A DNA stretch of 64,000 nucleotides from the NCBI GenBank assembly GCA_902756345.1, contig CACVQR010000012.1:1-64000 (forward strand), written 5' to 3'. Source of the DNA: Fibrobacter succinogenes. Its GTDB lineage: Bacteria > Fibrobacterota > Fibrobacteria > Fibrobacterales > Fibrobacteraceae. The notes below the pieces were generated by a model. The model saw only the letters and a program-made list of their open reading frames with translations. It made no database searches and was not told where the DNA came from. Positions 8,719 to 46,695 of this stretch are shown in pieces. The position numbers and the translations under genes were made by a program. The number at the start of each line of letters is the position of its first letter. The stretch's first letter is position 1.

Positions 8719-8727
8719 TCTTTTTGA

Positions 8728-30917: not shown

Positions 30918-31361
30918 ATGAAAAAATGCCGTCGAAAAAAACACGCACCCATGAACCGTTCGCAAATGATGCAGGCGGTCCATTCGGAAGACACCCGGCC
31001 CGAACTGCTTGTGCGGCGGGCGCTGTTTAAGGCGGGGCTGCGTTACAGGCTGCACAGGCACGATTTGCCCGGCTCGCCAGACCTGTTTATCCTCAAATAC
31101 AGCGTAGTTGTATTTATAAACGGCTGCTTCTGGCACCAGCACGGCTGCAAGTTTACGAGCCGCCCCAAGAGCAATCCCGAATTCTGGAACGAAAAATTCA
31201 CGAACAATATGGTGCGCGACATCAAGACGAACTGGAAACTTTCGCTACAAGGCTACCGCGTTGCAACCATTTGGGAATGTTCCATCAAGAACGATTTCGA
31301 CCACACTATTGAACGCCTCAAGGCCTTTATTGCAAGCGATGAAGAAAGCATAGAGATTTGA
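30918..31361 (+). CDS. vsr: very short patch repair endonuclease
   Basis: Nicks DNA at T:G mismatches that arise from deamination of 5-methylcytosine. The 147 residues hold RSQMMQAVHSEDTRPELLVRRAL, the catalytic Asp in LPGSPDLF (Asp55) and the zinc/active block FINGCFWHQHGC, then NWKLSLQGYRVATIWEC. Vsr is normally encoded with a Dcm-type cytosine methyltransferase or a restriction system; none is visible within 10 kb, so it is an orphan here. TATCTTTT precedes the ATG by about 15 nt. Confidence 0.93.
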   Translation: MKKCRRKKHAPMNRSQMMQAVHSEDTRPELLVRRALFKAGLRYRLHRHDLPGSPDLFILKYSVVVFINGCFWHQHGCKFTSRPKSNPEFWNEKFTNNMVRDIKTNWKLSLQGYRVATIWECSIKNDFDHTIERLKAFIASDEESIEI

Positions 31362-32347: not shown

Positions 32348-32392
32348 CAGGCTTTAAAAAGGCTATCTTTCTAGCAGCTTTTAGGAGTTTAT

Positions 32393-32848
32393 ATGAAAAT
32401 GAATTATGCCGAATGGGTTTGCCCGGAATGCAAGACCAAGAACCGCGAAACTTGCAACATGTGGATGTACGGCAGTCCGATTCGCGAATGCAAGGCCTGC
32501 CGCAGCGAATACCTGGACAGGCGCTGGCGCGAGGTGGCAATTGACGGATTTGATCCGCGTAGCAAGAATGCAAAATTCTACGCAAAAGGAGCCGCATTCC
32601 TTTTGTCAATGGCAATAATCTGCGGGGTATTACTTCAAACTTCATTCGTACATGGAAACAATTTCACAAAGCTTACCCTGGCGTGCATCCTATGCTCGCT
32701 ATTCGGCGTCGTTAGCGGATTCATCGCGCTCCGGATCAAGCTCGGCTTCGCAGCCAAGGACAACGATAAGTTTATGGCCGAATCCAAGGCGCGCCTAGGC
32801 GACCCGAAATACGTCGAAAAATTACGAAAGTTTGGATACAAAATTTAA
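32393..32848 (+). CDS. zinc-ribbon protein with two membrane segments
   Basis: A 151-residue protein. CPEC and CKAC pairs (residues about 10-37) form a zinc ribbon; two membrane segments follow (about 65-82 and 91-113), and a soluble tail of about 35 residues ends RLGDPKYVEKLRKFGYKI. TTAGGAGTTTAT precedes the start. The stop codon is immediately followed by an acetyltransferase fragment, so this is the last intact gene before the accessory region. No function recognised. Confidence 0.6.
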   Translation: MKMNYAEWVCPECKTKNRETCNMWMYGSPIRECKACRSEYLDRRWREVAIDGFDPRSKNAKFYAKGAAFLLSMAIICGVLLQTSFVHGNNFTKLTLACILCSLFGVVSGFIALRIKLGFAAKDNDKFMAESKARLGDPKYVEKLRKFGYKI

Positions 32849-32970
32849 ATCACCTTCTCGTGCGCCCCGAATACCAAGGCCAAAGCATCGGCAAGGAACT
32901 CGTGGAACGTATCAAGGAAATCTACAAGGATTACCAGCCTGTGGACGTAGGTTCCTTTTTCACCCAATAG
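32848..32970 (+). pseudogene. GNAT acetyltransferase fragment
   Basis: The frame from 32848 reads NHLLVRPEYQGQSIGKELV, then ERIKEIYKDYQPVDV, which is the acetyl-CoA binding motif A (R-x-x-Q/G-x-G/S) and following helix of a GNAT acetyltransferase. The N-terminal half and the C-terminal Tyr region are missing; the frame runs on into DNA of the opposite-strand gene and stops at 32968. Inferred to be a gene broken when the adjacent region was inserted. Confidence 0.65.
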
Positions 32971-34382
32971 CCGCCAGTCTTTTTAGAACCACGACGTTCA
33001 ATAAGTTCTTTTTTACGCAAAGACGAAACAACCTTATCAAGTGTGTCAATAGGCATTTGTAGTCTGCCAGAAAGTTCTTTTATCATAACTCCAGGTCTTT
33101 TTGTGATTTCCAGGAACACTTTCTGCTGTGTTTCATTTAGTTCAATTTTTAATCCGCCACTTAATCCGCCACTTAATCCGCCATTTAATCCGCCAACATT
33201 GCTCTTTTCTGGCACATGATCAGTCAGCGGAATCTCCGCTATAAAAATATCGTTATCCACAAATTTGGGTTTTAGCCCAGAATAAATTTCGCACAGGTCA
33301 CTAATTTTACGGATACCCGTACCGAGGTATTCCGCAAACCCCATCTGTGCAAACATTGTGGCAATATGCGGATTCTTAGGATAAGAACAAAGTTGAGATG
33401 CTATTTTCTCGTACGCAAAGGGCTTATTCGCATTATTCGTCACAAGCTTATCTTTATAAATAACGAGTGTTGTTGGAATCGGATTCATGTATTCACGATG
33501 AATCAGCATATTCGCAATCACTTCTCTAAAAATCTTGTCACGCAAAGAGAGTCTTGTTTTCCCATCCAAATAGAATTTGTCTGGGAGATGCTTTTCGATA
33601 AACCCGTTCAATAATTCGTAACCATCAATCAGGTTGCATGTAACAGTCAAGCGATCATCGTAACGCATCAGGTCTTGTTTGCGGACTACTGCTTCAATTT
33701 TATAATATGGCAAATAACTTGAAATCGCTTCGTCCGTGCCGAACAGCATAAGTGCAGCAAGTGTATAGCCCGACTTTCCAATGGTAGAATCATAGCGAAT
33801 CAAACCAGCCGCTTTGAAAAAATCTTCCTTGTTCAACTTGAGCCACGGGTGATTGGACCTGATAGAACGAATCAAATCCTTGGCCTTCTTAAGCATTCCG
33901 CGTTTAATATCAATTTCGCGAAGCCCCGGATAAACGGTATTTTCCGTATAGCTGTTGCTTTTGCGCAAATACATTGCACTAATTGCGCTCTGCGTCTTTA
34001 CCACAAAATCGCCATCGACGCTACGGTCGAAGACCTTCTTGCCGGTCTTGTGGACCTGCGAACTGGCGGGAACAAAGAAGTAGATCAATTTTTTGTCTTT
34101 GTAATCAACAACTTGCGGGTCAATCAAGTTCTGAGGATCCAATTTTTCAGGATTGTTGCTTAAATTCGCTATTTGCTTGCAAATTTTTTCGACGCAATTG
34201 GGATCAACGCCCTCAATTTTTTTGTCGTCTGTAACACCAAGGACAATATGGCCCCCATTGCGGTTTAAGAATGCCGCAACAGATTCAAAAAGATTGTCGG
34301 GCAATGCAGTCTTTGCCCTCTTGAATTCGACCGTCAAGCCTTCGCCCTGACGAATGATTTTTCCCAATTCTTTTTCATCCAT
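32931..34382 (-). CDS. Schlafen-AlbA_2 domain protein with winged-helix C-terminus
   Basis: A 483-residue protein from ATG 34382 (GGGGTGCCGAT upstream). Residues about 12-130 form the AlbA_2 (Schlafen-like) domain (LTVEFKRAKTALPDNLFESVAAFLNRNGGHIVLGV). The middle holds a GHKL-like region (FREVIANMLIHREYM, FAEYLGTGIRKI). A GGLNGG-LSGGLSGGL linker, encoded by 12-nt tandem repeats (about 33150-33197), joins to a winged helix (about 430-483). Such proteins are seen as regulators and in phage-defence regions. The small gene 34396-34569 lies 13 nt upstream, and both follow the structured leader. Confidence 0.8.
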   Translation of the reverse strand: MDEKELGKIIRQGEGLTVEFKRAKTALPDNLFESVAAFLNRNGGHIVLGVTDDKKIEGVDPNCVEKICKQIANLSNNPEKLDPQNLIDPQVVDYKDKKLIYFFVPASSQVHKTGKKVFDRSVDGDFVVKTQSAISAMYLRKSNSYTENTVYPGLREIDIKRGMLKKAKDLIRSIRSNHPWLKLNKEDFFKAAGLIRYDSTIGKSGYTLAALMLFGTDEAISSYLPYYKIEAVVRKQDLMRYDDRLTVTCNLIDGYELLNGFIEKHLPDKFYLDGKTRLSLRDKIFREVIANMLIHREYMNPIPTTLVIYKDKLVTNNANKPFAYEKIASQLCSYPKNPHIATMFAQMGFAEYLGTGIRKISDLCEIYSGLKPKFVDNDIFIAEIPLTDHVPEKSNVGGLNGGLSGGLSGGLKIELNETQQKVFLEITKRPGVMIKELSGRLQMPIDTLDKVVSSLRKKELIERRGSKKTGGYWVKKEPTSTGW

Positions 34383-34395
34383 ATCGGCACCCCTT

Positions 34396-34569
34396 TCATC
34401 CTCTCGGGTAACGCAGTTTCGCACCGCATTTTGGGCAACGCAGAATCAGTTCCTTAAGCCGTTTGATTTCCGCATCTTTTTCTTCTAGTACCTTGGCAAA
34501 ATCCCCGATGGCGTTGTTAGCACCGCGATTCGGGCCTCCGTTGAATTTTCCGAAAATTTCATCGAACAT
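34396..34569 (-). CDS. 57-residue coiled-coil and zinc-ribbon protein
   Basis: ATG 34569 behind AAGGAATAATT, 57 codons, TGA at 34396. Order: a short N-terminus (MFDEIFGKFNGGPNRG), a heptad-like helix (VLEEKDAEIKRLKELIL) and a half zinc ribbon CPKCGAKLRYPRG. Only two Cys are present, so zinc binding would need dimerisation through the coiled coil. It overlaps no other gene and ends 13 nt before the Schlafen-AlbA gene, so the two form an operon. Too short for most gene finders. Confidence 0.65.
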   Translation of the reverse strand: MFDEIFGKFNGGPNRGANNAIGDFAKVLEEKDAEIKRLKELILRCPKCGAKLRYPRG

Positions 34570-34899
34570 AATTATTCCTTATAAATTTTAGTTGAACGTC
34601 GCCATTGGGCGACAATTTGACTGGCCGTTGCGATTACGCCGAAAAACAGCGCACAACATGCCCTTGCTTATTTGTTATGTATTGAGATTTTCCACGCCTT
34701 GCGCGGAATGGGATGATCTTGCAATCCTGTTGGCGGGGGCTTTCCCCGGCGTTACTTGCCACTCTTTCAAGTGGACTCGAGTAGGTCGTATTCCTACCAG
34801 CTATCCAACAGAACCATCAAGAAGGTTGATGGGCCCCGCCGCGAATGCACGTACGGACCCGAAGGTCTATGTCGACTGTCACGAGGATTATCGAATATC
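34570..34899 (-). ncRNA. structured 5' leader RNA of the AlbA operon
   Basis: A 330-nt untranslated leader on the minus strand between a strong promoter and the 57-residue gene. Stems seen: four-way junction closed by CTGTTGG/CCAACAG (805-811 with 727-733 of 34,xxx), with hairpins GTAGG/CCTAC (34781-34797), CCACT/AGTGG (34759-34774) and CGGGG/CCCCG (34734-34748); CATCAA/TTGATG (34815-34831); GACC-TTCG-GGTC (34856-34867); TTCCGCGC/GCGTGGAA (34690-34708); GTCGCC/GGCGAC (34598-34613). The G-U pair in the 34690 stem exists only on the minus strand. No known riboswitch class was recognised. Confidence 0.6.
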
Positions 34900-34905
34900 G
34901 GCTAC

Positions 34906-34934
34906 AATATACACAAATAGATTGTCAAAGTCAA
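34906..34934 (-). promoter_or_regulatory. promoter of the AlbA operon leader
   Basis: TTGACT, 17-nt spacer, TATATT on the minus strand; the same site reads TTG-N20-TATATTGT. Start near 34899. Confidence 0.75.
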
Positions 34935-34981
34935 GGGATATATTATTTATCGCAACAATGAAAAAAAGCCCCTAAAATTGT

Positions 34982-35007
34982 CATGCCGGGTTTGACTCGG
35001 CATCTCC
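34982..35007. repeat. REP-like hairpin CATGCCGGGTTTGACTCGGCAT
   Basis: ATGCCG pairs with CGGCAT around GGTTTGACT. Hairpins of the form TCATGCCGG-N-CCGGCATCTCC are common dispersed repeats in many bacteria. It separates the two divergent RNA genes. Confidence 0.6.
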
Positions 35008-35040
35008 TTTTCTCTTCCAATTATTTATATTTCCCATTGA

Positions 35041-35255
35041 CATAGCCCCGTACCGAATGGTGCGGAGCGACCGGAATTTTTGAGATTCGTCTCTTATTCT
35101 CGCAACTGAAACTACCACTTTCAAACCAATCGAGAGTAAGACGAACACTCACGTCCCATCTGGGGCGTGGGTCGTTTGTGCTTATTGATTGGTAGGGTGT
35201 GGTAGCCCTCAGTTGCGGTAAGCACGCAAGAACGACTCCACGCCTTTTTTTTTTT
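35041..35255 (+). ncRNA. rod-shaped structured RNA, 6S-like
   Basis: Nearly continuous hairpin: CGCAACTGA/TCAGTTGCG (35101-35109 with 35209-35217), CTACCAC/GTGGTAG (35112-35118 with 35199-35205), a central bulge TTTCAA/AGGGT, ACCAATC/GATTGGT, AGTAAG/CTTATT, CGAAC/GTTTG, ACTCACG/CGTGGGT and a capped tip TCCC-ATCT-GGGG. A looser basal stem pairs 35082-35095 with 35228-35238. Four G-U pairs fit only the plus strand. Eleven T follow at 35245. TATATTTC at 35026 may be the promoter. Length and central bulge resemble 6S RNA, but its place in front of the putative defence operon allows another role. Confidence 0.7.
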
Positions 35256-35316
35256 CAAAAAAGTTGGAAATCGTTCATTTGCTGCAGGGACTTATCTCGC
35301 TGATAAGGATGCCCCT

Positions 35317-37245
35317 ATGGCAAAAATTGAGGTCATACAGACCGTTGATACATCGAACTTTAAGGCCGCTAACGCCGAAGAGCTGAAAAAGCAGATTGTT
35401 CACTATTTTGCCGAAAAAGGCTGTCCTCCAACAGTTGAAATCATTTCCGACAATACTGTCAAAATCATATTCGATACAGAAAACCTTGAATATGCCGAAA
35501 GGAATTTTCAGAAAGCGTCTTTAGCTTGCAGTGAAGGGCGTTTCAATGCGGCAATGGATTTGCTGCATAAGGCAATCAAGGCTTGTCCTGGATATTCTGA
35601 AGCTCATCGCCTTCTAGGCCAAGTTTTCTACCAGCAGGGCGAAATAGAGAAGGGCATGAATGAAGTCCTTGAGGCTCTTCTCATCGACCCGAAAAACATG
35701 TGGGCTCTCATCCTGATGGGAAACATCCTCGCCAATGGCAAGAACAATGCCGATGCCGCAGACAAATATTACAAAAAAGTTCTAGAATACTATCCCGACA
35801 ATGCCATCGCGCTCAACAATGTTGCGGGTACGCTCATTCGGAAAAAAGATTATGACAGCGCCATTCACTACATGAAACAAGCCCTTGAACTGGACAATAC
35901 CTACACAAACAGCTATTATGGGATTGCTTTAGCATACTATCACAAGGATGATTTGGACAACGCTTTTGAATACGCAAGTCAAGGTGCGCTGAAGGGCGCA
36001 AACCGCGCAGAAGACCCCGGTGTCCGTCAAGAACTTTTGAAATTGCTATTGACTATAGCAAGAGATATTGCAGAATCAACAGACTACGAATCCAAGGTAT
36101 TTGAATTTGCACACAGCCTTGAAACCAAGTATAATGTAACCATCAAATTTGAGCGCGATGACGAGCAGGACACCTTAGCACATTTGGAATTCGCCGATTT
36201 CCATCACAGCAAGGATCACGTAGTTAAATACAAGAAGGATGGCAACTACTGTCATTACATGCTTCATGAATTGACACACCTAGAAATGATGCTTTCTGCC
36301 CAAAGAAATGGAAAACTCCAGACCATCGGATTTACGCAGAAAAATTTTGACGCATTCTTGCTAGATTACAAACGTCATTTTGACGAAGTCAAGAAAAAGA
36401 TTGGCGCAATCCAATCAGAAAAGTTGGCGAAGCACTTGTTCCAGGGATTGTCATTGCAGGTGATGAATGCCCCGCTAGACTTGTTCGTGGAACAGAAAAT
36501 TTATGAGAAGGCGGAATTCAGGCCGCTTCAGTTGACATCTTTATTTGCAATGGAATCAAGCAACATCGATGCCGTGCGACAGACCGCGAATGTTGCTGAA
36601 TTTCCGCAAATTATCAAGGACACGAATAAACTGTTGAACATGCTTCAATCCTTGCTTTTACGCAAACTCTATGGATTGGATTTTGTCAATCAGTACAAGC
36701 CATCGCAAAACATGATGAACAGGGCAACAGAATTCTTCAAGGCATTTGAAGATTCTCTTGCATCGTTCAACGCAGGCGATGAATACGCTGTCTTTGAAAA
36801 GATTGCCACAGCACTCGGCTTAATAAAGTATTTCGCTCTTTCCTGCGTTGAAAAGAGTGAAATCAAGACAGAGGTCGACAGAAAGCAAGACCAGTTCAAC
36901 GAAACGCACAATCCCGCAAATGCAGACCCGATGATTACCATAATGATGTCTTCCTACATGGTCGGTGCGCTGGAATACTTTGAAGGGTTGCTGCCGGAAG
37001 ATATTGAAAAAGTCGCTTTTGAATGCGCCATGGTTGGACAAAATGGAATCAGCCCTGCACAAAAGAGCGGATACAAGTTGAACAATGTTCCTGGAAAAGA
37101 TTTTAGCGGTTATGAACTGCTCGCCTATTACTATGTAAGCTGGGCAATCTCGCATCCGGAAATGCTCGATAAACTGCACTTACCTTTTGCAGATGCCTAC
37201 AGTATGGCAAAGCAGATGTTTGATTCCAGACGAGGTGAAAAATGA
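35317..37245 (+). CDS. TPR protein with HExxH metallopeptidase-like domain
   Basis: A 642-residue protein. Residues about 55-240 are tetratricopeptide repeats (RFNAAMDLLHKAIKACPGY, NADAADKYYKKVLEYYPDN, DYDSAIHYMKQALELDNTY). The second half holds H317-E-L-T-H321 in YMLHELTHLEMML, a zinc-peptidase type motif, followed by helices with several Glu candidates for a third ligand (LDLFVEQKIYEKAEF). No signal peptide, so it should be cytoplasmic. AT-rich third positions contrast with the GC-rich genes outside. ATG follows a CTTATC/GATAAG hairpin that ends at GGATGCCCCT. First gene of a three-gene operon. Confidence 0.65.
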   Translation: MAKIEVIQTVDTSNFKAANAEELKKQIVHYFAEKGCPPTVEIISDNTVKIIFDTENLEYAERNFQKASLACSEGRFNAAMDLLHKAIKACPGYSEAHRLLGQVFYQQGEIEKGMNEVLEALLIDPKNMWALILMGNILANGKNNADAADKYYKKVLEYYPDNAIALNNVAGTLIRKKDYDSAIHYMKQALELDNTYTNSYYGIALAYYHKDDLDNAFEYASQGALKGANRAEDPGVRQELLKLLLTIARDIAESTDYESKVFEFAHSLETKYNVTIKFERDDEQDTLAHLEFADFHHSKDHVVKYKKDGNYCHYMLHELTHLEMMLSAQRNGKLQTIGFTQKNFDAFLLDYKRHFDEVKKKIGAIQSEKLAKHLFQGLSLQVMNAPLDLFVEQKIYEKAEFRPLQLTSLFAMESSNIDAVRQTANVAEFPQIIKDTNKLLNMLQSLLLRKLYGLDFVNQYKPSQNMMNRATEFFKAFEDSLASFNAGDEYAVFEKIATALGLIKYFALSCVEKSEIKTEVDRKQDQFNETHNPANADPMITIMMSSYMVGALEYFEGLLPEDIEKVAFECAMVGQNGISPAQKSGYKLNNVPGKDFSGYELLAYYYVSWAISHPEMLDKLHLPFADAYSMAKQMFDSRRGEK

Positions 37246-37571
37246 GCGACTTTGAAAAAATGAAAACGAAGGTCAAACAATTCACCATTGACCGCGACTG
37301 GGACCAATTTCACAACGGCAAGGACCTCGCCATTGCCCTTTCTGGCGAGGCATCGGAACTTCTCAATGCGTTCCTTTGGAAGAAACCTGAAGATGTAAAA
37401 ATTGAAAAGGTGCGTGAAGAATTAGCCGATGTGCTTAATTATGCTTTTTTAATTGCAGACAAGTATAATCTTGATATTGAGCAAATCATGGATGAAAAGT
37501 TGAAAGTTAACGAAGAAAAATATCCCGTTGATAAGGCTAAAGGATCTGCGAAGAAGTATAACGAGTTGTAA
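37242..37571 (+). CDS. MazG-like nucleotide pyrophosphohydrolase
   Basis: A 109-residue all-alpha NTP pyrophosphohydrolase of the short MazG/RS21-C6 type. The Mg-binding motif ExxE12-28ExxD is seen as SGEASELLNAF and REELADVLNYAF. It would hydrolyse (d)NTPs to monophosphates, either as house-cleaning or to deplete nucleotides. It overlaps the upstream gene by 4 nt (ATGA) and lies 11 nt before the nuclease-helicase gene; MazG-like genes are often found beside DUF2075 helicases. Confidence 0.88.
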   Translation: MSDFEKMKTKVKQFTIDRDWDQFHNGKDLAIALSGEASELLNAFLWKKPEDVKIEKVREELADVLNYAFLIADKYNLDIEQIMDEKLKVNEEKYPVDKAKGSAKKYNEL

Positions 37572-37582
37572 GGGGTGTTGAA

Positions 37583-39595
37583 ATGTCTCATAGCCGAGTC
37601 ATCTATCAAGCGGAACAAACAGACTTTTTCACAGATGTCCTGCTGAATCAGGTTGCAGACAAAATGCGAGAGACGGCTGCTGTATTAAATTTTAAACCAG
37701 GATTATCTGAAATCGCTTCATGGAGAAACAATGCTCCTAAAATAAAGAATCTACTTGAATTGTCTGGTGTGCAAAATTCCTACGTAACCTTTGAATACCT
37801 TGTTCCCTATAACAGGAAACGAATTGACTGTATGATATATGGTCGAGGAAATGACAATAAAGGGTCTGTCGTTCATTTGGAATTAAAACAATGGAGTAAT
37901 GAAGGAGTAACTCCAGCACCATCAGAAGGCAATTTTGATATTGTAGAAGACGAATTCACCGATGAAAATGTCGTGTATCGCGTCAACGCCGTTACAGGAG
38001 GCGGAGTTAGAACGGTAGCGCATCCGTCTCAACAGGTTCGTGGTTACAATGATTATTTGAAGGGGTTCGTTGAAGTTTTAAGCGAAAAAGAGCTCAATTT
38101 AACAGGCGCAGCTTATTGTTATAATTACAGAAGAAACAATGCTGATAATACAGCTTTATACGACTCTCGCTACAACAAGCTCTTAACGCAGTACCGCACC
38201 TATGCTGGCGATGAAGTTCGTGATTTAGCAAATTTGCTTAAAGCTGTTTTGGGAAATGGAGACGGACTCAATGTTTTCAACAAGATGATGAATTCTCCGA
38301 TTCGTCCTTCAAAAAAACTACTTGATTCAGCCTCTAATTTAATACATGACGGCAATGCAGATGCATTTTCTCTCATTGAAGATCAAATCGTAGCAAGAAA
38401 TATAATCCTTGACAAAATCCGAAATTTGCATAAAACGCAAGAAAAATCCGTCATATTGGTAAAAGGCGGTCCTGGGACGGGGAAAACCGTAATTGCATTG
38501 CATTTATTAGCCCTGATCGCCGGAATGAAAGGACGAAGTCTAAACGTCCATTATGCCACAAAATCAAAACCACTGTTAGAAGGAGTAAAACATCAACTTC
38601 CTCGCGGATCAAAAGCCAAAATGCTCTTTCATAACGTGACCCAATATGTTCCGGCAAATTGTAACGAAAATGAAATTGACGTATTGATGGTAGACGAAGC
38701 TCATCGAATGACAAATTCTTCGAATAATCAATACACACCTGCCGAAAAAAGAACAGACATGCCCCAAGTCGAAACGTTAATACGGGCATCGAAGGTGGCA
38801 GTCTTTTTTATTGATGATAAGCAGGCCATTCGCGGGGTTGAAATTGGTTCAAGCGATTTGATTCGAGAATATGCAAAGAAATACAATGCAAAAATAGAGG
38901 AAGTCCAATTAAAGTCGCAATTCCGTTGCAATGGTTCGGACAATTACTTAGATTGGCTAGAACAACTTCTCTATAACCAACGAGCCTCGGCCTTTTTTGA
39001 AGAAGAAGAATTTGATTTTAAAATTTTTGACACTCCAAAAGATTTGTACGCTGCTATCTTAGAAAAAAATTCCTTGCCTCAAATGACTGCGAGACTTTGC
39101 GCAGGATTTTGCTGGCCATGGTCAAGCGATTTAGATAAAGACGGAAACCTAGTTAAAGACGTCCATATTGGTGATTTCGCAATGCCCTGGGAAACAAAAG
39201 ACACTATAAAGAAGATTCCTGATGGGTACGTAAAATGGTATGAATGGGCATACAAACCTGAAGGGATTAAACAGATTGGTTGTATCTACACCGCCCAAGG
39301 TTTTGAATTTGATTATATCGGCGTAATTATTGGCCCTGATCTATACTACAATAATTATACTGGACGTATTGAAACAAATATTAAGGAATCCAAAGACCCC
39401 GTTCTAAAACGCAGCGGCGAAAAAGTCGATGAGTACATCCGTAATATTTACCGTGTTCTAATGAGTCGAGGAATGAAGGGGTGCTACGTATATTTCTGCG
39501 ACAAACCATTACGGCATTACATTGAGCAAAGGCTCAAGGCATGCGCACCGGATATGCTGATAGCTGCAGAAAAGAAAGTCATTTACAAAGCATAA
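37583..39595 (+). CDS. PD-(D/E)XK nuclease fused to Schlafen-group-3 helicase (DUF2075)
   Basis: A 670-residue protein. N-terminal residues about 60-110 look like a PD-(D/E)XK nuclease (Asp in NRKRIDCMIYG, then VVHLELKQW with the ExK pair). The DUF2075 helicase follows: Walker A KGGPGTGKTVIAL (about 292-304), Walker B LMVDEAHRM (about 367), motif KSQFRCNGSDNYLDWL, and a C-terminal CIYTAQGFEFDYIGVIIGPDL plus RVLMSRGMKGCYVYF motifs. Start behind AAGGGGTGTTGAA. AT-rich composition. Together with the two upstream genes it suggests a nucleic-acid-directed defence system. Confidence 0.82.
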   Translation: MSHSRVIYQAEQTDFFTDVLLNQVADKMRETAAVLNFKPGLSEIASWRNNAPKIKNLLELSGVQNSYVTFEYLVPYNRKRIDCMIYGRGNDNKGSVVHLELKQWSNEGVTPAPSEGNFDIVEDEFTDENVVYRVNAVTGGGVRTVAHPSQQVRGYNDYLKGFVEVLSEKELNLTGAAYCYNYRRNNADNTALYDSRYNKLLTQYRTYAGDEVRDLANLLKAVLGNGDGLNVFNKMMNSPIRPSKKLLDSASNLIHDGNADAFSLIEDQIVARNIILDKIRNLHKTQEKSVILVKGGPGTGKTVIALHLLALIAGMKGRSLNVHYATKSKPLLEGVKHQLPRGSKAKMLFHNVTQYVPANCNENEIDVLMVDEAHRMTNSSNNQYTPAEKRTDMPQVETLIRASKVAVFFIDDKQAIRGVEIGSSDLIREYAKKYNAKIEEVQLKSQFRCNGSDNYLDWLEQLLYNQRASAFFEEEEFDFKIFDTPKDLYAAILEKNSLPQMTARLCAGFCWPWSSDLDKDGNLVKDVHIGDFAMPWETKDTIKKIPDGYVKWYEWAYKPEGIKQIGCIYTAQGFEFDYIGVIIGPDLYYNNYTGRIETNIKESKDPVLKRSGEKVDEYIRNIYRVLMSRGMKGCYVYFCDKPLRHYIEQRLKACAPDMLIAAEKKVIYKA

Positions 39596-39618
39596 ACCAA
39601 CCTATGCAAAAAATACAC

Positions 39619-39650
39619 AAGTTCCATTTTGGAACTTATGCTCTTTTGAT
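39619..39650 (+). terminator. probable terminator of the three-gene operon
   Basis: AAGTTCC-ATTTT-GGAACTT, 7-bp stem, followed by ATGCTCTTTTG, 23 nt after the helicase stop codon. Confidence 0.6.
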
Positions 39651-39695
39651 GTCTATTAGCCTAGGGCGTTACAGAAGCCCCTGCCAATTTATAAA

Positions 39696-41033
39696 TCACT
39701 CCAAGAACATAGCCATGTAGTACGGCAATGTAACCATCTTGCCAGCAACACCTATGTTGTTTTCGGAAAGTTTGTAGCAAACCTTGGCTGCGTAGTTGTC
39801 GTTATTCAAAACGGTCTTTGCCGACTTGGAGCGTCCCGTTGTCGCCTTGACTTCAATAATGGCAAGTTCGCCGCCGACATTTTCTACAAAGTCAATTTCT
39901 AGCCCAGATTCTTTGCGGAAGTAGAACAGCTTGCGGCCTTGTTTAGAGAAACAATCTGCGATGATATTCTCGTAGATGGCGCCTTTATAGAATCCCAAAT
40001 CACCGCTTAGAATCTTGGCTGCGGTGCCGCGTTCCAGCATGGCGACAAACAGGCCGGAATCCTGCACATAAATCTTAAACGTATTCTCGATCTTGTAGCC
40101 TTCAAGGGGTTCTGCGATGTTGGTCAGGTTGTGGCAAATGTTGATTATGCCGCAGTCGTAGAGCCATTGGATTGCGGTTTGGTAATTTTCGGAACGGCCT
40201 TTCTTTTCTAGTTGCGAATAAACAAACTTGTTATTTTCCTTCGCAAGTTGGGCGGGAATTGAATCAAAAACGCGATTGATGCGGCCAAGAAGCGTGCGGT
40301 CGATTTCCTCATTTTCGTTCTCGTCAAGGTGCTTGCCAAAATCATCCTTGTATTCTTCGAGAATGTCCTGCTGTTCCTGCCAAACAACGTTCATGTCGTT
40401 CGTCTCGACAAATCGAGAAACGACATAAGGGAGCCCGCCTACACAAAGGTATTCCTTGAAGTAGCGGAGCATGGCGTTGTGCGTCGCCTCGCTTACGGGT
40501 TCCTTTTTCGCGAAGCATTCCTTCAGGTAACTGATGACTTTTTCATCAATTCCCTTCGCCCACAGAAATTCCTCGAAATCCATGGGTTTCATATAAAGTA
40601 TTCTTTCAAAACCGGTCGGGACGCCTTTTCCCTTTTTACGGTTGTACCCCTTAATACCAAGCAGGGATCCAGTACAGATGACGTCGTAGCGACCGTCTTC
40701 CATAAAAGGCTTGATGCTTGCGCGGGCGTTTGCACATTCCTGAATTTCATCGAAGATGATGACGGTCTTGTTCTCGACAAAATGCACATTAGGAAAAAGC
40801 GCGGAAAGGTCTATGGTAATCCGGCTCACGTTCAGGTCGCCCTCGAAAACCTTCTTCGCGTTATCGTTTTCCTTAAAGTTGATATAGACGACGCTCTCGT
40901 AGTTGCTGCGGGCGAATTCCAGGACACTGGATGTCTTGCCGATTTGACGCATTCCCTTGACAACTAGGGCCTTCTTTTTACCCCCCGAAATCTTCCAATT
41001 TTCGAATTCTTTAAGGATTTTTCTCTTGAACAT
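39696..41033 (-). CDS. AAA_14/DUF4143 ATPase
   Basis: A 445-residue ATPase with C-terminal DUF4143 (PD-(D/E)XK-like) domain. Walker A is KGMRQIGKTS (about 26-35), Walker B VIIFDEIQEC, sensor region DVICTGSLLGI. The C-terminal part has FYKGAIYENIIADCF, LFYFRKESGLEIDFV and AIIEVKATTGRS, the nuclease-like D...ExK pattern. The role of this common family is unclear. The ATG lies 6 nt from the -10 of a promoter covered by three 33-bp-spaced repeats (41040-41127), which suggests tight and perhaps autogenous control. Confidence 0.88.
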   Translation of the reverse strand: MFKRKILKEFENWKISGGKKKALVVKGMRQIGKTSSVLEFARSNYESVVYINFKENDNAKKVFEGDLNVSRITIDLSALFPNVHFVENKTVIIFDEIQECANARASIKPFMEDGRYDVICTGSLLGIKGYNRKKGKGVPTGFERILYMKPMDFEEFLWAKGIDEKVISYLKECFAKKEPVSEATHNAMLRYFKEYLCVGGLPYVVSRFVETNDMNVVWQEQQDILEEYKDDFGKHLDENENEEIDRTLLGRINRVFDSIPAQLAKENNKFVYSQLEKKGRSENYQTAIQWLYDCGIINICHNLTNIAEPLEGYKIENTFKIYVQDSGLFVAMLERGTAAKILSGDLGFYKGAIYENIIADCFSKQGRKLFYFRKESGLEIDFVENVGGELAIIEVKATTGRSKSAKTVLNNDNYAAKVCYKLSENNIGVAGKMVTLPYYMAMFLE

Positions 41034-41039
41034 ACCCTA

Positions 41040-41127
41040 AAACTACACTTTTCCGACCGAATTGTCAATAATGAAACGCACTTTTTCAACCGAATTAGTG
41101 CATTAAAGTCGCACTTTTTCCACCGAA
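41040..41127 (-). promoter_or_regulatory. promoter with three operator-like direct repeats
   Basis: TTGACA (41063-41068), 17-nt spacer, TAGTTT (41040-41045). The 16-bp word TTCGGTNGAAAAAGTG occurs three times on the minus strand (41046-41061 as TTCGGTCGGAAAAGTG, 41079-41094, 41112-41127) at exactly 33-bp spacing. The first copy fills the spacer between -35 and -10, so a bound protein would block RNA polymerase. Confidence 0.75.
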
Positions 41128-41170
41128 AAAGTGAAAATTTGCCAATTTTACGTAAATTTTGCCAATTTTA

Positions 41171-41364
41171 GTCAGCAAATCTGATGACCCCGCGCTGTTT
41201 CTCCGAGCCATCGGACACACCGCGAGACGCGCTTTGAAACAATTTTCAAGGTGCTGAACGCCATGGGAATCCAGATGACGCTTGTCCCTAAAATGAGGCT
41301 CAGAAAACGCAGCAAACAAACAGCACTTTGCGTCGCCGAGAAAAGGGCGCTATATAGGGTGTAG
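41171..41364 (+). pseudogene. broken HigA-type addiction-module antidote gene
   Basis: One frame (from about 41171) reads VSKSDDPALFLRAIGHTARR and a second frame (from 41230) reads RFETIFKVLNAMGIQM then TLVPKMRLRK. These match the N-terminal and C-terminal parts of the HigA-like antidote family, in which a helix-turn-helix of about 25 residues normally lies between (TQIAKETGL...). The HTH coding part is deleted and the frame shifted. No start codon and no partner toxin are seen. Two AAATTTTGCCAATTTTA words precede it. Confidence 0.6.
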
Positions 41365-41371
41365 AGTTTTA

Positions 41372-41458
41372 TCGGGGGTTTTAGGGGCCTGGCCCCTAGG
41401 TGAAGGGGTAGCGGAAAACGCCGAAGGCGGTTGAAGCGAGGGGAAGGCTTTCCCCTTT
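41372..41458 (+). repeat. three-hairpin intergenic element, copy c
   Basis: Opening GGGGGTTTT, hairpin 1 AGGGGCC-T-GGCCCCT, AAGGGGTAGCG, hairpin 2 around CGCCGAAGGCG, hairpin 3 GGGGAAGGCTTTCCCC. It lies 200 nt upstream of thrS; an inverted copy lies just downstream of thrS. Confidence 0.7.
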
Positions 41459-41473
41459 GTATAATCAGGACTA

Positions 41474-41514
41474 GATTCTTCGACTTCGCCCTACGGGCTC
41501 CGCTCAGAATGACA
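41474..41514 (-). repeat. REP-like hairpin (GTCATTCTGAGCG type), copy 1
   Basis: Minus strand GTCATTCTGAGCGGAGCCC, GTAG, GGGCGAAGTCGAAGAATCT. Same layout with compensatory changes at 46707-46751. Confidence 0.7.
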
Positions 41515-41564
41515 CGTTTAGCCCCTAACGCTGTACTCCAGGGTGACAATCGGGACAGTATTAT

Positions 41565-41595
41565 TTGCCGAAACGCAAGCCAAATGCTACATTTG
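41565..41595 (+). promoter_or_regulatory. thrS promoter
   Basis: TTG (41565-41567), 20-nt spacer, TACATTTG (41588-41595). It leaves a leader of about 60 nt; no T-box is visible. Confidence 0.65.
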
Positions 41596-41660
41596 CGCGC
41601 ACCGCCAGATGTCGTATTTCTGGGGAACCGGGCGAGAACCGCCCATAAAAAGGATTACTT

Positions 41661-43598: not shown

Positions 43599-43622
43599 TC
43601 ATCAACCACAAAACTTTCTACC

Positions 43623-43656
43623 GCCTTGTCACAGAAATGTGGCAAGGCATTTTTTC
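43623..43656 (+). terminator. thrS terminator
   Basis: GCCTTGTCACA-GAAA-TGTGGCAAGGC (11-bp stem with one wobble) followed by TTTTTTCTTTG, 24 nt after the stop codon. Confidence 0.95.
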
Positions 43657-43662
43657 TTTGTT

Positions 43663-43745
43663 AAAGGGGAAAGCCTTCCCCTGGCTCGCACTCTGTTGCT
43701 CACTACCCTTTCTAGCGGGCTTCAAACGCCAGCCCGCAACGCCCG
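43663..43745 (-). repeat. three-hairpin intergenic element, copy d
   Basis: Minus strand GGGCGTTGCGGGCTGG opening, hairpin 1 GCGGGCT-N-AGCCCGC, AGAAAGGGTAG, second loose hairpin, hairpin 3 GGGGAAGGCTTTCCCC followed by TTTAAC. It begins right after the thrS terminator. Confidence 0.72.
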
Positions 43746-43822
43746 GCTTACCCTACCCACCCGCCCAAAACAGAAGACCATTGCTTTATCAGCAATGGCC
43801 TTCTGAAAAATATGTCCAACGT

Positions 43823-44035
43823 TTAAATTTCGAACAGTTTCATTTCCTGCTCTGTGAGCGGACGCCCCAAACTGTTTGAATAGGCAATTGCTTCATGCAA
43901 ACGGAAATGTCGTTCTGTCGGAGACGGTTCGGTTAAACGACCATCAGAAAACTCTTCTCCGAAGCGGTCGAAATTTTCTCGCAGCGTATTACTCTTGCGT
44001 GAAGCAACGACGGGTTCGAGTTCTGCTACAATCAT
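43823..44035 (-). CDS. 70-residue protein paired with a GNAT gene
   Basis: A small soluble protein (MIVAELEPVVASRKSNTLRE to RPLTEQEMKLFEI) with no recognised domain. It starts 1 nt after the stop of the acetyltransferase gene, so the two are co-translated. Charged, mostly helical composition would suit an antitoxin or adaptor. Order is enzyme first, small protein second, the reverse of most type II toxin-antitoxin pairs. Confidence 0.55.
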   Translation of the reverse strand: MIVAELEPVVASRKSNTLRENFDRFGEEFSDGRLTEPSPTERHFRLHEAIAYSNSLGRPLTEQEMKLFEI

Positions 44036-44036
44036 A

Positions 44037-44561
44037 TTACGCCTCCTCGGGAAAATAGGTTTTGATTAGTTTCAATGCTCCATAGCTGTCTATGAACATT
44101 TTTTGAGAATCGATGTTTCGCGCTCCTAAAGTTTCACGATAATGTTCTACAAGGTTCGTTTTCGCAGTAAACTGAACATAGCCCTCGTTACCGACATCCC
44201 AGCTTAGTTTGCAGGCTATTGCAAAGAGGTGCGCTCCTACGCCTTTGTATTTTCCTAGATGCCCGATATTTTCCGGAGCTGCTTCTACAATATCTACATG
44301 TGTATAAAATTGATCGCGGATATGCTTCAGCGCTATCATACCTTGCACTTGAGTGTCATCTTTCAACAACAACTCATAAACCTCATAATCGTGCTGATGT
44401 GGTATGCTCCAATCGAATTTCCACCCCTTTCGTTGTAGTGCTACGGCGTCCTTCTTTGAAATAGTTTTTAACACTAGCCGAAACTCGGTGTCGAGTTGCG
44501 CTCCAGTTTCTCGACACACTAGGCAGTTCGTAAGGGAATCTATTTGGATGTCAATTTCCAT
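44037..44561 (-). CDS. GNAT-family N-acetyltransferase
   Basis: A 174-residue acetyltransferase. Motif A is weak (LGKYKGVGAHLFAIACKLSWDVG, where R/Q-x-x-G-x-G/A is reduced to YKGVGA), and motif B is GYVQFTAKTNLVEHYRETLGA with the usual Tyr. Substrate unknown; the N-terminal region (CLVCRETGAQL) has two Cys. It is transcribed from TTG-N20-TATATTTA (44586-44616) with the 70-residue gene. The composition is more AT-rich than the chromosomal genes. It could be a toxin that acetylates aminoacyl-tRNA or an ordinary protein acetylase. Confidence 0.7.
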   Translation of the reverse strand: MEIDIQIDSLTNCLVCRETGAQLDTEFRLVLKTISKKDAVALQRKGWKFDWSIPHQHDYEVYELLLKDDTQVQGMIALKHIRDQFYTHVDIVEAAPENIGHLGKYKGVGAHLFAIACKLSWDVGNEGYVQFTAKTNLVEHYRETLGARNIDSQKMFIDSYGALKLIKTYFPEEA

Positions 44562-44585
44562 TGGGTCGCGTTATCCTTATCAGTG

Positions 44586-44616
44586 TAAATATACCTTTTT
44601 CGCACCTCAAAGGCAA
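44586..44616 (-). promoter_or_regulatory. promoter of the GNAT gene
   Basis: TTG (minus strand, 44614-44616), 20-nt spacer, TATATTTA (44586-44593). Leader about 20 nt. Confidence 0.65.
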
Positions 44617-44804
44617 GTTTTAGGGAGGTTCATTCCAAGTAGGAATAGTCCGTTTGCTTTACAAATCTGCTCAAAAATGCCGTTTACTTCACAAAAACAC
44701 TCCTTTTTTGCAAACTTTTTGAGCGTGTTGCCCTTTTTTATGTTATTTTTAGAACGAAATAGAGAGTTCTGCTCTTGTTCTCTAAGTGAAATCTAGACAG
44801 TTCC

Positions 44805-44882
44805 ATGGCCAAAGAACTTTTTGTCCCGCAGGATACGAAGATCGATTATGTTCAATTCACAAAGAATGGAGACTGCGAATGA
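44805..44882 (+). CDS. possible 25-residue upstream peptide
   Basis: ATG 44805 to TGA 44882 encodes MAKELFVPQDTKIDYVQFTK-NGDCE. The stop overlaps the next ATG by 4 nt (ATGA), so it could couple translation of the lipoprotein. No Shine-Dalgarno is seen. It may equally be the end of a decayed gene. Confidence 0.3.
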   Translation: MAKELFVPQDTKIDYVQFTKNGDCE

Positions 44883-45688
44883 AGAAGCTTTTGTTATCGT
44901 TTTGTCTAACAGCGTTGATTGTTGCATGTTCCGATGATTCTTCAAGTACCAACAACGAAAAGCAGTATCCATTGCAACTAAATGAGAATTGTAAAGATTT
45001 TAAAGCGGACTCATCTGTGTGGAACGCTATAGAAAACCAGAATTTAAACAAATTAAAGAAAAGCTTGGAGAATTGTGCATCCTTGGATATGGAAATTTAT
45101 GACTCATCCTTGGTTAGCAATTATTCGGTTTTGGCGGACTTGCTATTTCAAGAAAACACCGATTCACTTATATTGTATCTGTTACAAAACGGCATGGATT
45201 CAGTGGGTCGCGACAAGTGGAACATCTTTGCGACAGATGCCATGTTTGCCGAAGACACACTTATGCTTCGTTATGCAATCGACAACGATTTTCCAATTAG
45301 TGGAACGACGGTTCGAGCGGCAATCATTGAATCTTCAACAGGAATGTTGGGAAGTGAGGTCGGTCGTTATTGGTACAATCTGTTAATCGACCACATTCCT
45401 AGTGTGGATAGCGTTCGTCTGAATACGGCTCAGGATTTTTCAATTTTACATGAGTTCTGTGGCGGAAGCGTCCACTTTACAGGATTATCAGAAGAAGATC
45501 AACTGTTTTATTTTCAAGACTTGATTGATAGGGGATATTCCATAAATCAAAAATCAAGCGACATGGTTGAACTAGATTATTGTAATTATGGATACTGGAA
45601 TCAAACAGACCTTCAAAAGAAGTTTACTGATATTCTTATCAAGGCGGGCGCTGATACAACTCTAGTTAAGTGGACTTATTCGGAATAG
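44879..45688 (+). CDS. ankyrin-like lipoprotein
   Basis: A 269-residue lipoprotein. Start 44879 gives a signal peptide MKKLLLSFCLTALIVAC with Cys17 in the lipobox LIVAC; longer frames add non-signal residues. Repeats of about 33-40 residues (NLNKLKKSLENCASLDMEI, ENTDSLILYLLQNGMDSV, DTLMLRYAIDNDFPISG, KKFTDILIKAGADTTL) resemble degenerate ankyrin repeats, a protein-binding fold. AT-rich. A terminator follows at 45712. Envelope-located, function unknown. Confidence 0.65.
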   Translation: MKKLLLSFCLTALIVACSDDSSSTNNEKQYPLQLNENCKDFKADSSVWNAIENQNLNKLKKSLENCASLDMEIYDSSLVSNYSVLADLLFQENTDSLILYLLQNGMDSVGRDKWNIFATDAMFAEDTLMLRYAIDNDFPISGTTVRAAIIESSTGMLGSEVGRYWYNLLIDHIPSVDSVRLNTAQDFSILHEFCGGSVHFTGLSEEDQLFYFQDLIDRGYSINQKSSDMVELDYCNYGYWNQTDLQKKFTDILIKAGADTTLVKWTYSE

Positions 45689-45711
45689 GAATCGAATTCT
45701 CTTTTTAGCAG

Positions 45712-45740
45712 GCGAAATCCAAGTCGGGTTTCGCTTTTTG
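45712..45740 (+). terminator. terminator after the ankyrin-like lipoprotein
   Basis: GCGAAATCC-AAGTC-GGGTTTCGC (9-bp stem, one wobble) followed by TTTTTG. Confidence 0.85.
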
Positions 45741-45742
45741 CG

Positions 45743-45876
45743 TTAGGGATAGTGACCCTTGGGGACAAGACTCGCGGAGCGAGGCTTGGTTCTGGGAGGT
45801 GAGCGGCAAGCATAAGCGTAGCCGATTGCCCCCAGAACATAGCCCGACCCTCACGATAGTGTGGGGAACGCCCATA
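45743..45876. repeat. multi-hairpin dispersed repeat (GGGCGTTCCCC type)
   Basis: Read on the minus strand it opens GGGCGTTCCCCAC and folds into three hairpins: GGGG/ACCC with CAC/GTG around ATAG-like loop (45847-45866), TTCTGGG/CCCAGAA (45790-45837) and CAAG-CTCGC/GCGAG-CTTG (45766-45788). Elements of this form occur in many bacterial genomes. It directly abuts the partial thrS copy. Confidence 0.6.
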
Positions 45877-45887
45877 AGACCAACATA

Positions 45888-46695
45888 CGAAGTGGCCGAC
45901 TTCTGCGCCCTCGTGAAGGAAAAGCGTGCAAGCCGAGTGTCGCGACAAAATGCTTGCATTTTGGCATAACCGAGGCGCAGCCGCGGACGCCAAAGGCGTC
46001 AAATCTACCACGACTTCGGTTTCGACGATATCGTGGTGAAGTTCTCCACCCGCCCGGAAAAGCGCGTGGGTTCCGACGAAATCTGGGACAAGGCTGAAGC
46101 CGCCCTCGCCGAAGCGACGAAGCTCGCTGGCCTCGACTACATTTTGAACCCGGGTGAAGGTGCCTTCTACGGCCCGAAGCTCGAATTCACGCTGAAGGAC
46201 AGCCTCGGACGTGACTGGCAGTGCGGTACCATCCAGGTGGACTTCAACTTGCCGCAGCGCCTGGGTGCCGAGTATGTCGGCAAGGACAACCAGAAGCACA
46301 TCCCGGTGATGCTTCACCGTGCCGCCGTGGGTTCCATCGAACGCTTCCTCGGTATTCTTATCGAAGAATTCATGGGCGATTTCCCGCTGTGGCTCGCTCC
46401 GGTTCAGGCCCGCGTGCTCCCGATTTCCGAGAAGTTCGTTGACTACGCAAAGCAGGTCGAGAAGGAACTCGTGAACGCCGGCGTCCGCGTGGAAGTCGAC
46501 GAATCCAACGAAAAGCTCGGCTACAAGATCCGCCAGTGCGAATTGCAGAAGGTGCCTTACCTCCTGATTGTGGGAGAGAAGGAAGTTGCCGATGGTGTTG
46601 TCTCTGTTCGCCGCCGTAAAGAGGGTGACAAGGGCAGCATGAAGGTCGCCGACTTCCTCAAGATGACGGAAGAAGACCGTAAGGTTGTGCGGTAA
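45888..46695 (+). pseudogene. thrS: partial second copy of thrS with a 78-bp insertion
   Basis: Repeats the last 40 percent of thrS (from CGAAGTGGCCGACTTCTGCG, equivalent to 42874, to the stop). After AAGGAAA a 78-bp hairpin-rich insert (45923-46000; AAAATGC/GCATTTT and GACGCC/GGCGTC stems) is flanked by AAA on both sides; the copy then continues open to the stop as a 220-residue frame from GTG/ATG near 46033. It keeps the end of the catalytic core and the anticodon domain but lacks TGS, editing and most catalytic parts. Differences are mostly synonymous, with five changes in the last 18 residues ([20 protein letters not shown]). Not expected to charge tRNA. Confidence 0.88.

Follow-up and report, generated by a model that had tools for sequence, protein, structure and literature searches.

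What is a compact, AT-rich cluster of three genes doing in the genome of Fibrobacter succinogenes, and does it form a functional unit? The window (the whole stretch of 64,000 nucleotides that was analysed) carries, at 35317–39595 on the + strand, genes for a TPR-HExxH protein, followed by a MazG protein resembling DCTPP1 and by a PD-(D/E)XK nuclease joined to a Schlafen-group-3 (DUF2075) helicase. An initial annotation had named the three genes and their domains, and open reading frames, Pfam matches and conserved motifs confirm these calls. The genes are also as closely spaced and AT-rich as it had described: genes 1 and 2 overlap by 4 bp (ATGA), genes 2 and 3 are separated by an 11-bp gap, and the GC content is 40–45%, versus approximately 50–55% in the surrounding DNA. 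The span that it gave holds for the genes but omits a conserved structured RNA of approximately 170 nt, which ends in a terminator directly upstream of the operon (35078–35257). Features are collected in Table 1.

Table 1 Features of the operon, its leader and the surrounding chromosomal slot (positions in the window).
Feature	Position	Strand	Details and basis
Integration slot between BASS-type transporter gene and thrS	32348–41660	none	Comparison with other Fibrobacter genomes
Mobile unit	Start ~34980–35078, end ~39647–39664	+	blastn against eight other copies; flanks differ between genomes
Structured leader RNA (class A)	35078–35249	+	Fold z, covariation, CM match, competing fold
Intrinsic-terminator-like 3′ half of leader	35163–35257	+	Stem 35163–35177/35230–35245, then T11
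TPR-HExxH protein gene	35317–37245	+	642 aa; ORF, Pfam TPRs, alignment, AF2
MazG-like NTP pyrophosphohydrolase gene	37242–37571	+	109 aa; PF12643, phmmer, invariant acidic residues
PD-(D/E)XK + Schlafen-group-3/DUF2075 SF1 helicase gene	37583–39595	+	670 aa; PF09848, motifs, fold matches
AAA_14-DUF4143 protein gene	39696–41033	−	Pfam; convergent neighbour of operon

The initial annotation held that its reading would fail if the triple were not conserved together elsewhere. When this test was run, the complete triple was found in the same order in all eight testable Fibrobacter loci, on the Microcystis phage Mwe-JY31 and on the Marivirga plasmid p1, where it is frameshifted; a phage contig (L082) carries a four-gene split version (TPR, HExxH, MazG and DUF2075, with the first two parts as separate genes) between head/scaffold and portal genes. 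Values of omega for genes 1 and 2 in Fibrobacter, in comparisons without saturation, are 0.02–0.08, indicating purifying selection, which together with the conservation in other phyla rules out chance as the origin of the three-gene unit. Catalytic residues are intact across operon copies. Sequence comparison thus shows a single three-gene unit that evolves under purifying selection and is retained in several phyla as well as by phages and plasmids.

The operon is patchily distributed, with copies in approximately 10 of 168 genomes, and the DNA common to these copies lies at differing genomic positions with flanking genes that vary by genome. Our survey outside Fibrobacterota covered plasmid, phage and IMG/VR records. 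Partial arrangements also occur: MazG adjoining DUF2075 in loci of Priestia, Halalkalicoccus and G162, gene 1 on its own next to a type I restriction–modification (R-M) system (G071), a solitary gene 1 copy without MazG (L041), and genes 1 and 2 adjoining McrBC in Hymenobacter, with DUF2075 genes 6 kb away. Among viral contigs, a scan with the TPR-HExxH protein of the window alone had no match, and one with an alignment found a single, truncated locus (L081).

The copy in the window occupies a slot whose length elsewhere in Fibrobacter ranges from approximately 2.6 to 20 kb; R-M systems often fill it, and their genes in other strains are of types I, II, IIG and III. The convergent AAA_14-DUF4143 gene also adjoins two other operon copies (L034 and L035) and other cargo in this slot, and is probably a separate slot gene. 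PADLOC matches of flanking genes to PDC-S entries (S01, S02, S05 and S27) were left out of the evidence because these are unproven candidates. An apparent Gabija system in the flanks of another copy (L033), called from UvrD-type matches to GajB, is probably an AddAB-like pair instead.

The protein encoded by gene 1 begins with a small alpha/beta part (residues 1–60), followed by TPRs at residues ~62–222 (Pfam), a beta-sheet and HExxH helix at ~275–330 that includes H317, E318 and H321, and a helical C terminus. The HExxH region is covered by no Pfam model. In an alignment of seven sequences from three phyla, H317, E318, H321 and E392 are invariant, a pattern of HExxH and downstream Glu that would fit a gluzincin with E392 as a candidate third ligand. 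In the AF2 model a small sheet precedes the HExxH helix, and much of 332–596 falls below pLDDT 50. Because the AF2 models are of moderate confidence overall (pLDDT 67 and 74), both the fold of the peptidase and the function given to E392 stay candidate assignments; the Foldseek matches listed hit the TPRs and include no zincin relative, so that none can be named for gene 1. The HExxH motif is kept in operon copies and lost in solitary chromosomal relatives of this domain. Short Fibrobacter relatives were considered as a stand-alone peptidase and rejected, as LREVVRFEM replaces HExxH in the alignment and the preceding stretch is deleted.

Gene 2 matches the MazG-like family PF12643 (1.6e-17, Pfam) and aligns over nearly its full length to DCTPP1/RS21-C6 (1.3e-16, phmmer). 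The closest solved relatives of this all-alpha NTP pyrophosphohydrolase are dCTP pyrophosphatase 1, and the metal-binding ExxE...ExxD pattern of this type is present as E36, E39, E60 and D63, invariant in eight sequences. We therefore predict a DCTPP1-like MazG pyrophosphohydrolase with dCTP as its putative substrate.

Gene 3 encodes a Schlafen-group-3 helicase (PF09848, 2.9e-91; residues 288–640) whose fold matches include UvrD, AddB and SLFN11/14, with Walker A (295–302) and DEAH (371–374) motifs conserved in bacterial and archaeal homologues. The nuclease at residues ~40–105 has the PD-(D/E)XK pattern D82...E100-x-K102-Q103, invariant in ten homologues from bacteria and archaea, and in the predicted model its motif is carried by a beta-hairpin of strands 81–88 and 94–102. 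Among Fibrobacter copies, blastn shows gene 3 swapped exactly at the MazG stop codon while genes 1 and 2 stay similar, the two versions being a PD-(D/E)XK-helicase and a GIY-YIG-helicase. In these alignments, gene 3 is a block that is exchanged between nuclease–helicase types.

The leader RNA combines two mutually exclusive folds. One is a long covarying hairpin (35102–35108/35210–35216, 35112–35118/35199–35205, 35126–35131/35187–35192 and 35137–35157/35162–35184); the other pairs 35092–35101/35132–35141 and 35178–35187/35216–35225 along with the terminator stem. Both use 35163–35177; the copies retain the two sets of helices and also a CCACGCC-T run. The fold has a z of −6.3. In the alignment, 96.5% of cells are paired, 17 of 40 pairs have changes on both sides, and double-change cells number 76, compared with 23.4 ± 3.5 after shuffling and at most 14 when slid. 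The leader thus has two features of an attenuator: a structure supported by compensatory changes, and an intrinsic terminator that competes with another fold. Its CM match (178.8 bits) is the only one in the window. A search of Rfam assigned it to no family, the matches at E 0.13 and 7.9 (a plant miRNA and DUF3800-XI) being below threshold; a retron or DRT RNA was dropped as a candidate because Pfam found no reverse-transcriptase domain in the operon genes and neighbours.

Of 111 Fibrobacteraceae genomes, 87 carry this leader, usually 30–75 bp ahead of a start codon in sense orientation, and the next gene belongs to an R-M system in 34 of 40 sampled copies. According to blastn of the copies, it marks the 5′ border of the moving unit. 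Several genomes have it in tandem, approximately 1.8 kb apart; two operon copies (L033 and L036) have deletions of 12–14 nt within it, and a search ahead of the non-Fibrobacter triples did not find it.

We conclude that the locus is probably a mobile three-gene defence operon directed against phages (or mobile elements), with protein roles that we infer from their domains. The anti-phage reading follows from a mobile unit whose occurrence extends to unrelated bacteria, to plasmids and to phages, and from a leader that mostly precedes R-M genes. The defence association put forward by the initial annotation is likewise supported by the R-M-filled slot, phage and plasmid carriage, and the leader shared with R-M systems; its reading is borne out in part, and it overlooked both the leader RNA and the exchange of gene 3. 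The roles that it suggested (nucleotide depletion, cutting, and a peptidase effector or regulator) would agree with the intact catalytic residues. In the mechanism that we propose, the nuclease–helicase would engage foreign or aberrant DNA, with the SF1 motor loading and unwinding and the PD-(D/E)XK or GIY-YIG head cutting; gene 3 may diversify because it is this part that meets foreign DNA. The DCTPP1-like enzyme would remove dCTP or modified dCTP and starve phage replication. The TPR-HExxH protein could be the sensor or switch, its TPRs binding a phage or host protein and its zinc-peptidase cleaving a partner to release or restrain the other two proteins. The leader would act as a bistable attenuator with regulated read-through, and we propose that the operon is therefore expressed together with R-M systems.

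Three other readings of the operon were weighed. The arrangement might be a weapon between mobile elements, excluding competitors of plasmids and prophages with host defence as a by-product. Its carriage by a cyanophage and by Bacteroidota plasmids would suggest this, as would its place among the head and portal genes of a phage contig, where it is cargo. We consider this rather unlikely, given the chromosomal positions in Fibrobacter, a window copy that adjoins neither integrase nor structural genes, and a leader used by chromosomal R-M systems. A toxin–antitoxin-like abortive system, with a toxic TPR-HExxH peptidase or nuclease and a protective MazG that sanitises nucleotides rather than depleting them, draws on the homology to DCTPP1, whose loss in human cells increases dUTP and uracil misincorporation, a house-cleaning role (PMC7162842), and on the translational coupling of genes 1 and 2, which are conserved together. 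It is unlikely too: two further catalytic partners and an exchangeable nuclease–helicase fit targeting better than a simple pair, and gene 1 can occur without MazG. Most improbable is an accessory DNA-repair or nucleotide-quality module with no anti-phage role; UvrD/AddB-like helicase folds and DCTPP1-like enzymes are both known from genome maintenance, but such a module sits badly with the patchy distribution, the phage and plasmid carriage, the exchange of gene 3, the R-M slot and the shared leader.

The leader could instead act as DNA, as an attC-like folded single-strand recombination site that moves R-M cassettes and the operon, its covariation reflecting DNA hairpins. Folded attC sites covary too, and the border position and tandem copies would suit such a site. 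Yet its usual place and sense orientation before start codons, and a conserved end of GC-stem and T-tract resembling an intrinsic terminator, speak for an RNA; no matching site was seen at the 3′ border and no integrase is linked to it in the window. A recombination site is accordingly a doubtful explanation, which we keep as a rival to the attenuator.

The usual view is that each defence system has its own regulation. With somewhat less than even confidence, we suggest a Fibrobacteraceae-wide defence regulon, in which one attenuator RNA, standing ahead of the TPR-peptidase/dCTPase/nuclease–helicase operon and of unrelated R-M types I, II, IIG and III, couples all of them to one signal, such as infection or phage-altered transcription. 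The operon would then be a new type of defence that combines several enzymes and whose nuclease–helicase can be exchanged. If so, this previously uncatalogued leader, standing ahead of most sampled R-M loci and a non-R-M operon, would be a marker for finding Fibrobacter defence systems and would allow one to ask which signal switches bacterial immunity on. The operon itself would bring predicted DNA cutting and unwinding, nucleotide removal and proteolysis together in a single unit that is conserved and exchangeable in different phyla and on phages. Literature searches returned no description of the leader and no paper joining DUF2075, MazG and defence, although such absence is not proof of novelty.

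Among known systems, the single-gene phage defences Nhi (nuclease–helicase immunity) and AbiO resemble gene 3 in coupling a nuclease to an SF1 helicase. PADLOC, whose models do not cover genes 1 and 2, matches gene 3 residues 258–486 to AbiO (3.7e-13) and Nhi (7e-13), beginning at profile position 173–183, so that the helicase domain is shared and residues 1–257, with the N-terminal nuclease, are uncovered; the best match is the uncharacterised candidate PDC-S41. Unlike these single genes, gene 3 belongs to a conserved group, with MazG and TPR-HExxH genes beside it in all eight testable loci. Hachiman (HamAB) offers a possible analogy, as its helicase senses DNA state and frees a nuclease (PMC12278908). 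It differs in having two proteins, a DUF1837 nuclease and no MazG or peptidase. Depletion of dNTPs is a known defence strategy, used by dCTP deaminase and dGTPase systems; what the operon shares with these is an enzyme family that destroys dCTP, placed in the context of defence, but its putative enzyme is an all-alpha DCTPP1-like pyrophosphatase that always comes with other genes. Lit is an HExxH peptidase of proteolytic abortive infection, and the likeness is one of motif and phage-defence context, whereas the candidate peptidase here is fused to TPRs within an operon. Like cis-regulatory attenuators and riboswitches, the leader is a structured element with a mutually exclusive hairpin and terminator ahead of many operons; it differs in its absence from Rfam and in an apparent regulon made up mainly of R-M systems and this operon. 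The operon is best read as a nuclease–helicase defence variant that would be expressed through a shared attenuator-like leader.

The initial annotation described a candidate defence operon of three AT-rich, overlapping or closely spaced genes. These were recovered as open reading frames where it had placed them, all on the forward strand, in a block richer in AT than its surroundings in the window. Genes 1 and 2 overlap by 4 bp, and genes 2 and 3 are separated by 11 bp.

Genes of the operon in the window
Feature	Position	Strand	Basis
Gene 1, TPR-HExxH	35317-37245	+	ORF
Gene 2, MazG-like	37242-37571	+	ORF; domain match
Gene 3, Schlafen-group-3/DUF2075 helicase with N-terminal nuclease motif	37583-39595	+	ORF; domain and motif

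Gene 1 contains TPRs and an HExxH motif at residues 317–321, in a region covered by no Pfam or NCBIfam model. H317, E318, H321 and E392 are invariant in an alignment of operon copies from three phyla, and the motif reads HECGH in the split version of the operon on a phage contig (L082). The metal residues of gene 2 are likewise invariant among aligned homologues, and its closest relatives of solved structure are dCTP pyrophosphatase 1, whose human form, DCTPP1, acts on dCTP and 5-modified dCTP (PMC7162842). The helicase model of gene 3, of moderate confidence, resembles UvrD, AddB and SLFN11/14 in structure comparison. Judged from sequence, the catalytic residues are retained in the operon copies.

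Full-length gene 1 occurs in 9 of 168 Fibrobacterota genomes, the window's own included, and a tenth genome has a copy truncated at the end of its contig. All carriers belong to the window's genus. In all eight genomes with gene 1 identity of at least about 60% (G000, G062, G074, G082, G095, G116, G120 and G135), gene 1 is immediately followed by MazG and a DUF2075 gene, in that order. The ninth genome (G071, identity about 40%) carries gene 1 alone, adjoining a type I restriction-modification (R-M) system, with a RecT-like gene (recognized by eye) in the vicinity. Where not saturated, omega among Fibrobacter copies is 0.02–0.08, with synonymous changes far exceeding replacement changes. Separately, solitary chromosomal relatives of the HExxH domain (285–350 aa) occur at fifteen loci (L042–L056) in Fibrobacter and sister genera, none of them linked to MazG or DUF2075. 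Ten aligned relatives have lost HExxH and the preceding stretch, and the group is possibly a domesticated pseudo-peptidase family.

Outside Fibrobacterota, where the survey covered plasmid, phage and IMG/VR records, Microcystis phage Mwe-JY31 carries all three genes in the same order, with gaps of 9 and 14 bp. The initial annotation would have given up the operon had its genes not been kept together in other genomes; their order holds in this phage and the eight Fibrobacter genomes. Marivirga plasmid p1 also has the three genes, with genes 1 and 3 frameshifted and a second DUF2075 gene behind. On Hymenobacter plasmid unnamed2, genes 1 and 2 overlap and adjoin McrB/McrC and a SIR2 gene; two DUF2075 genes lie at a distance of about 6 kb. 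On phage contig L082, four genes make up the operon: TPR and HExxH as separate genes, then MazG and DUF2075. They lie between the major-head/scaffold genes and the portal gene, in the opposite reading direction. MazG–DUF2075 neighbourhoods, mentioned in the initial annotation, were seen in Priestia (with DUF3578) and Halalkalicoccus, with different upstream partners. Together, these neighbourhoods and those in Fibrobacter indicate that MazG–DUF2075 is the wider core, and that TPR-HExxH is its recurring partner, not a chance neighbour.

Nucleotide comparison of the Fibrobacter copies shows homology starting at about 34980–35078, ending with the MazG gene at 37570 and in some copies resuming at about 39557–39664; between the last two points, gene 3 is swapped for another version. 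One PD-(D/E)XK version is common to the window and locus L033, and a second, with about 33% identity to the window version, occurs at L035, L038, L039 and L040. GIY-YIG heads are found at L034 and L037, and L033 has a GIY-YIG version in tandem with its PD-(D/E)XK version. Flanking genes vary among genomes, so the operon unit is mobile.

In the window, the operon sits in the interval bounded by a BASS-type transporter gene and thrS, which spans about 2.6 to 20 kb in other genomes. There it holds type I (G067, G104), type II (G069) or type III (G103) R-M systems, or a type IIG system plus a very large helicase-like protein (G102). In G069, the window's AlbA_2 (97.7%) and DUF4143 (97.5%) genes recur, bracketing the type II system in place of the operon. 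The window's AAA_14-DUF4143 gene (39696–41033) has 94–98% copies beside unrelated defence cargo at L034, L035, L097, L098 and L099, and a Vsr-type mismatch endonuclease gene lies near the slot (30918–31361; TIGR00632, 4.6e-39). The C-terminal third of thrS is duplicated (45676–46695, and 43599–45996; 97% to residues 414–645) about 2.4 kb downstream of intact thrS. Extra thrS 3′ pieces recur near thrS in G095 (three copies), G098 and G071, which suggests that elements integrate at thrS, supplying a replacement 3′ end.

Within the conserved DNA ahead of gene 1 lies a structured leader RNA (35078–35257), which matches no Rfam family. The 35060–35262 segment folds at -80.8 kcal/mol (z -6.3 versus shuffled sequence). 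Over 15 copies, pairing holds in 96.5% of cells, and 17 of the 40 pairs have changes on both sides. Double-change cells number 76, versus 23.4 ± 3.5 when shuffled and no more than 14 when the partner is slid. A conserved second helix set, with weaker covariation (4 pairs), competes with the long hairpin; one of its helices is a 14-pair terminator stem that precedes T11. This predicted anatomy is that of an attenuator. Two operon copies, L033 and L036, have short deletions inside the leader.

A short core pattern of the leader matches 88 of 168 phylum genomes (reversed control near zero), and its covariance model matches 87 of 111 Fibrobacteraceae genomes, with 1–18 copies each. The same model found no leader with the non-Fibrobacter triples, nor at L100–L102, home of two type I R-M systems. 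Among 40 copies drawn from the best-scoring matches, blind to the neighbouring gene, the next gene is R-M in 34 (PADLOC scans identify 25 directly; the other 9 are homologous to a protein so scanned). These calls rest on profile matches and exclude PADLOC class PDC candidates. Types I and II are represented, as are several type IIG and type III families; the weakest call is L163, which matches type I restriction subunits in part. The other six copies precede an acyltransferase (L176), two related 802–805-aa proteins (L183, L198) and three unassigned proteins (L184, L193, L201). Model-building copies also precede type I, III and IIG genes and, at L152, an MBOAT acyltransferase-type pair. Since orthologous loci recur, the sampled copies are non-independent and the association is an enrichment, not a p-value; as such, the leader marks defence genes. 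A second leader class (L142, L143, L145, L146, L150, L151, L153–L159, L161), which shares the GGGGCGTGGGTCGTTT core and the long terminator stem but differs in its 5′ part, serves as an internal contrast: it mainly precedes genes whose products are secreted or lipoprotein-like, many of them beginning with MEAVMA (by eye).

Tandem leaders are common, with both copies facing the same way at a spacing of about 1.8 kb (pairs in G061, G063, G075, G077, G096 and G098). At L099, the first (6872–7024) precedes small genes and the second (8673–8825) an R-M gene. At L098 (14451–17453), a leader-preceded type III methyltransferase gene, apparently truncated, adjoins a ribosomal-protection-GTPase-like gene (by eye) and mobilization-type genes; the arrangement may reflect the insertion of an element.

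Because conservation, gene 3 exchange, carriage, slot and leader combine, a defence role is the best reading of the operon from sequence. Domain make-up and diversification point to gene 3 as the DNA-engaging part; MazG would act as its enzyme family does, and the architecture of TPR-HExxH suggests a sensor or protease. In Hachiman (PMC12278908) and Nhi (PMC12904381), the trigger for helicase–nuclease defence is phage single-stranded DNA-binding protein or abnormal DNA, precedents that make it plausible that gene 3 engages foreign or aberrant DNA. We do not claim the operon as an Nhi/AbiO member, since the N-terminus of gene 3 is unmatched and the single-gene character is absent; the likeness to those systems lies in the gene 3 helicase, which matches.
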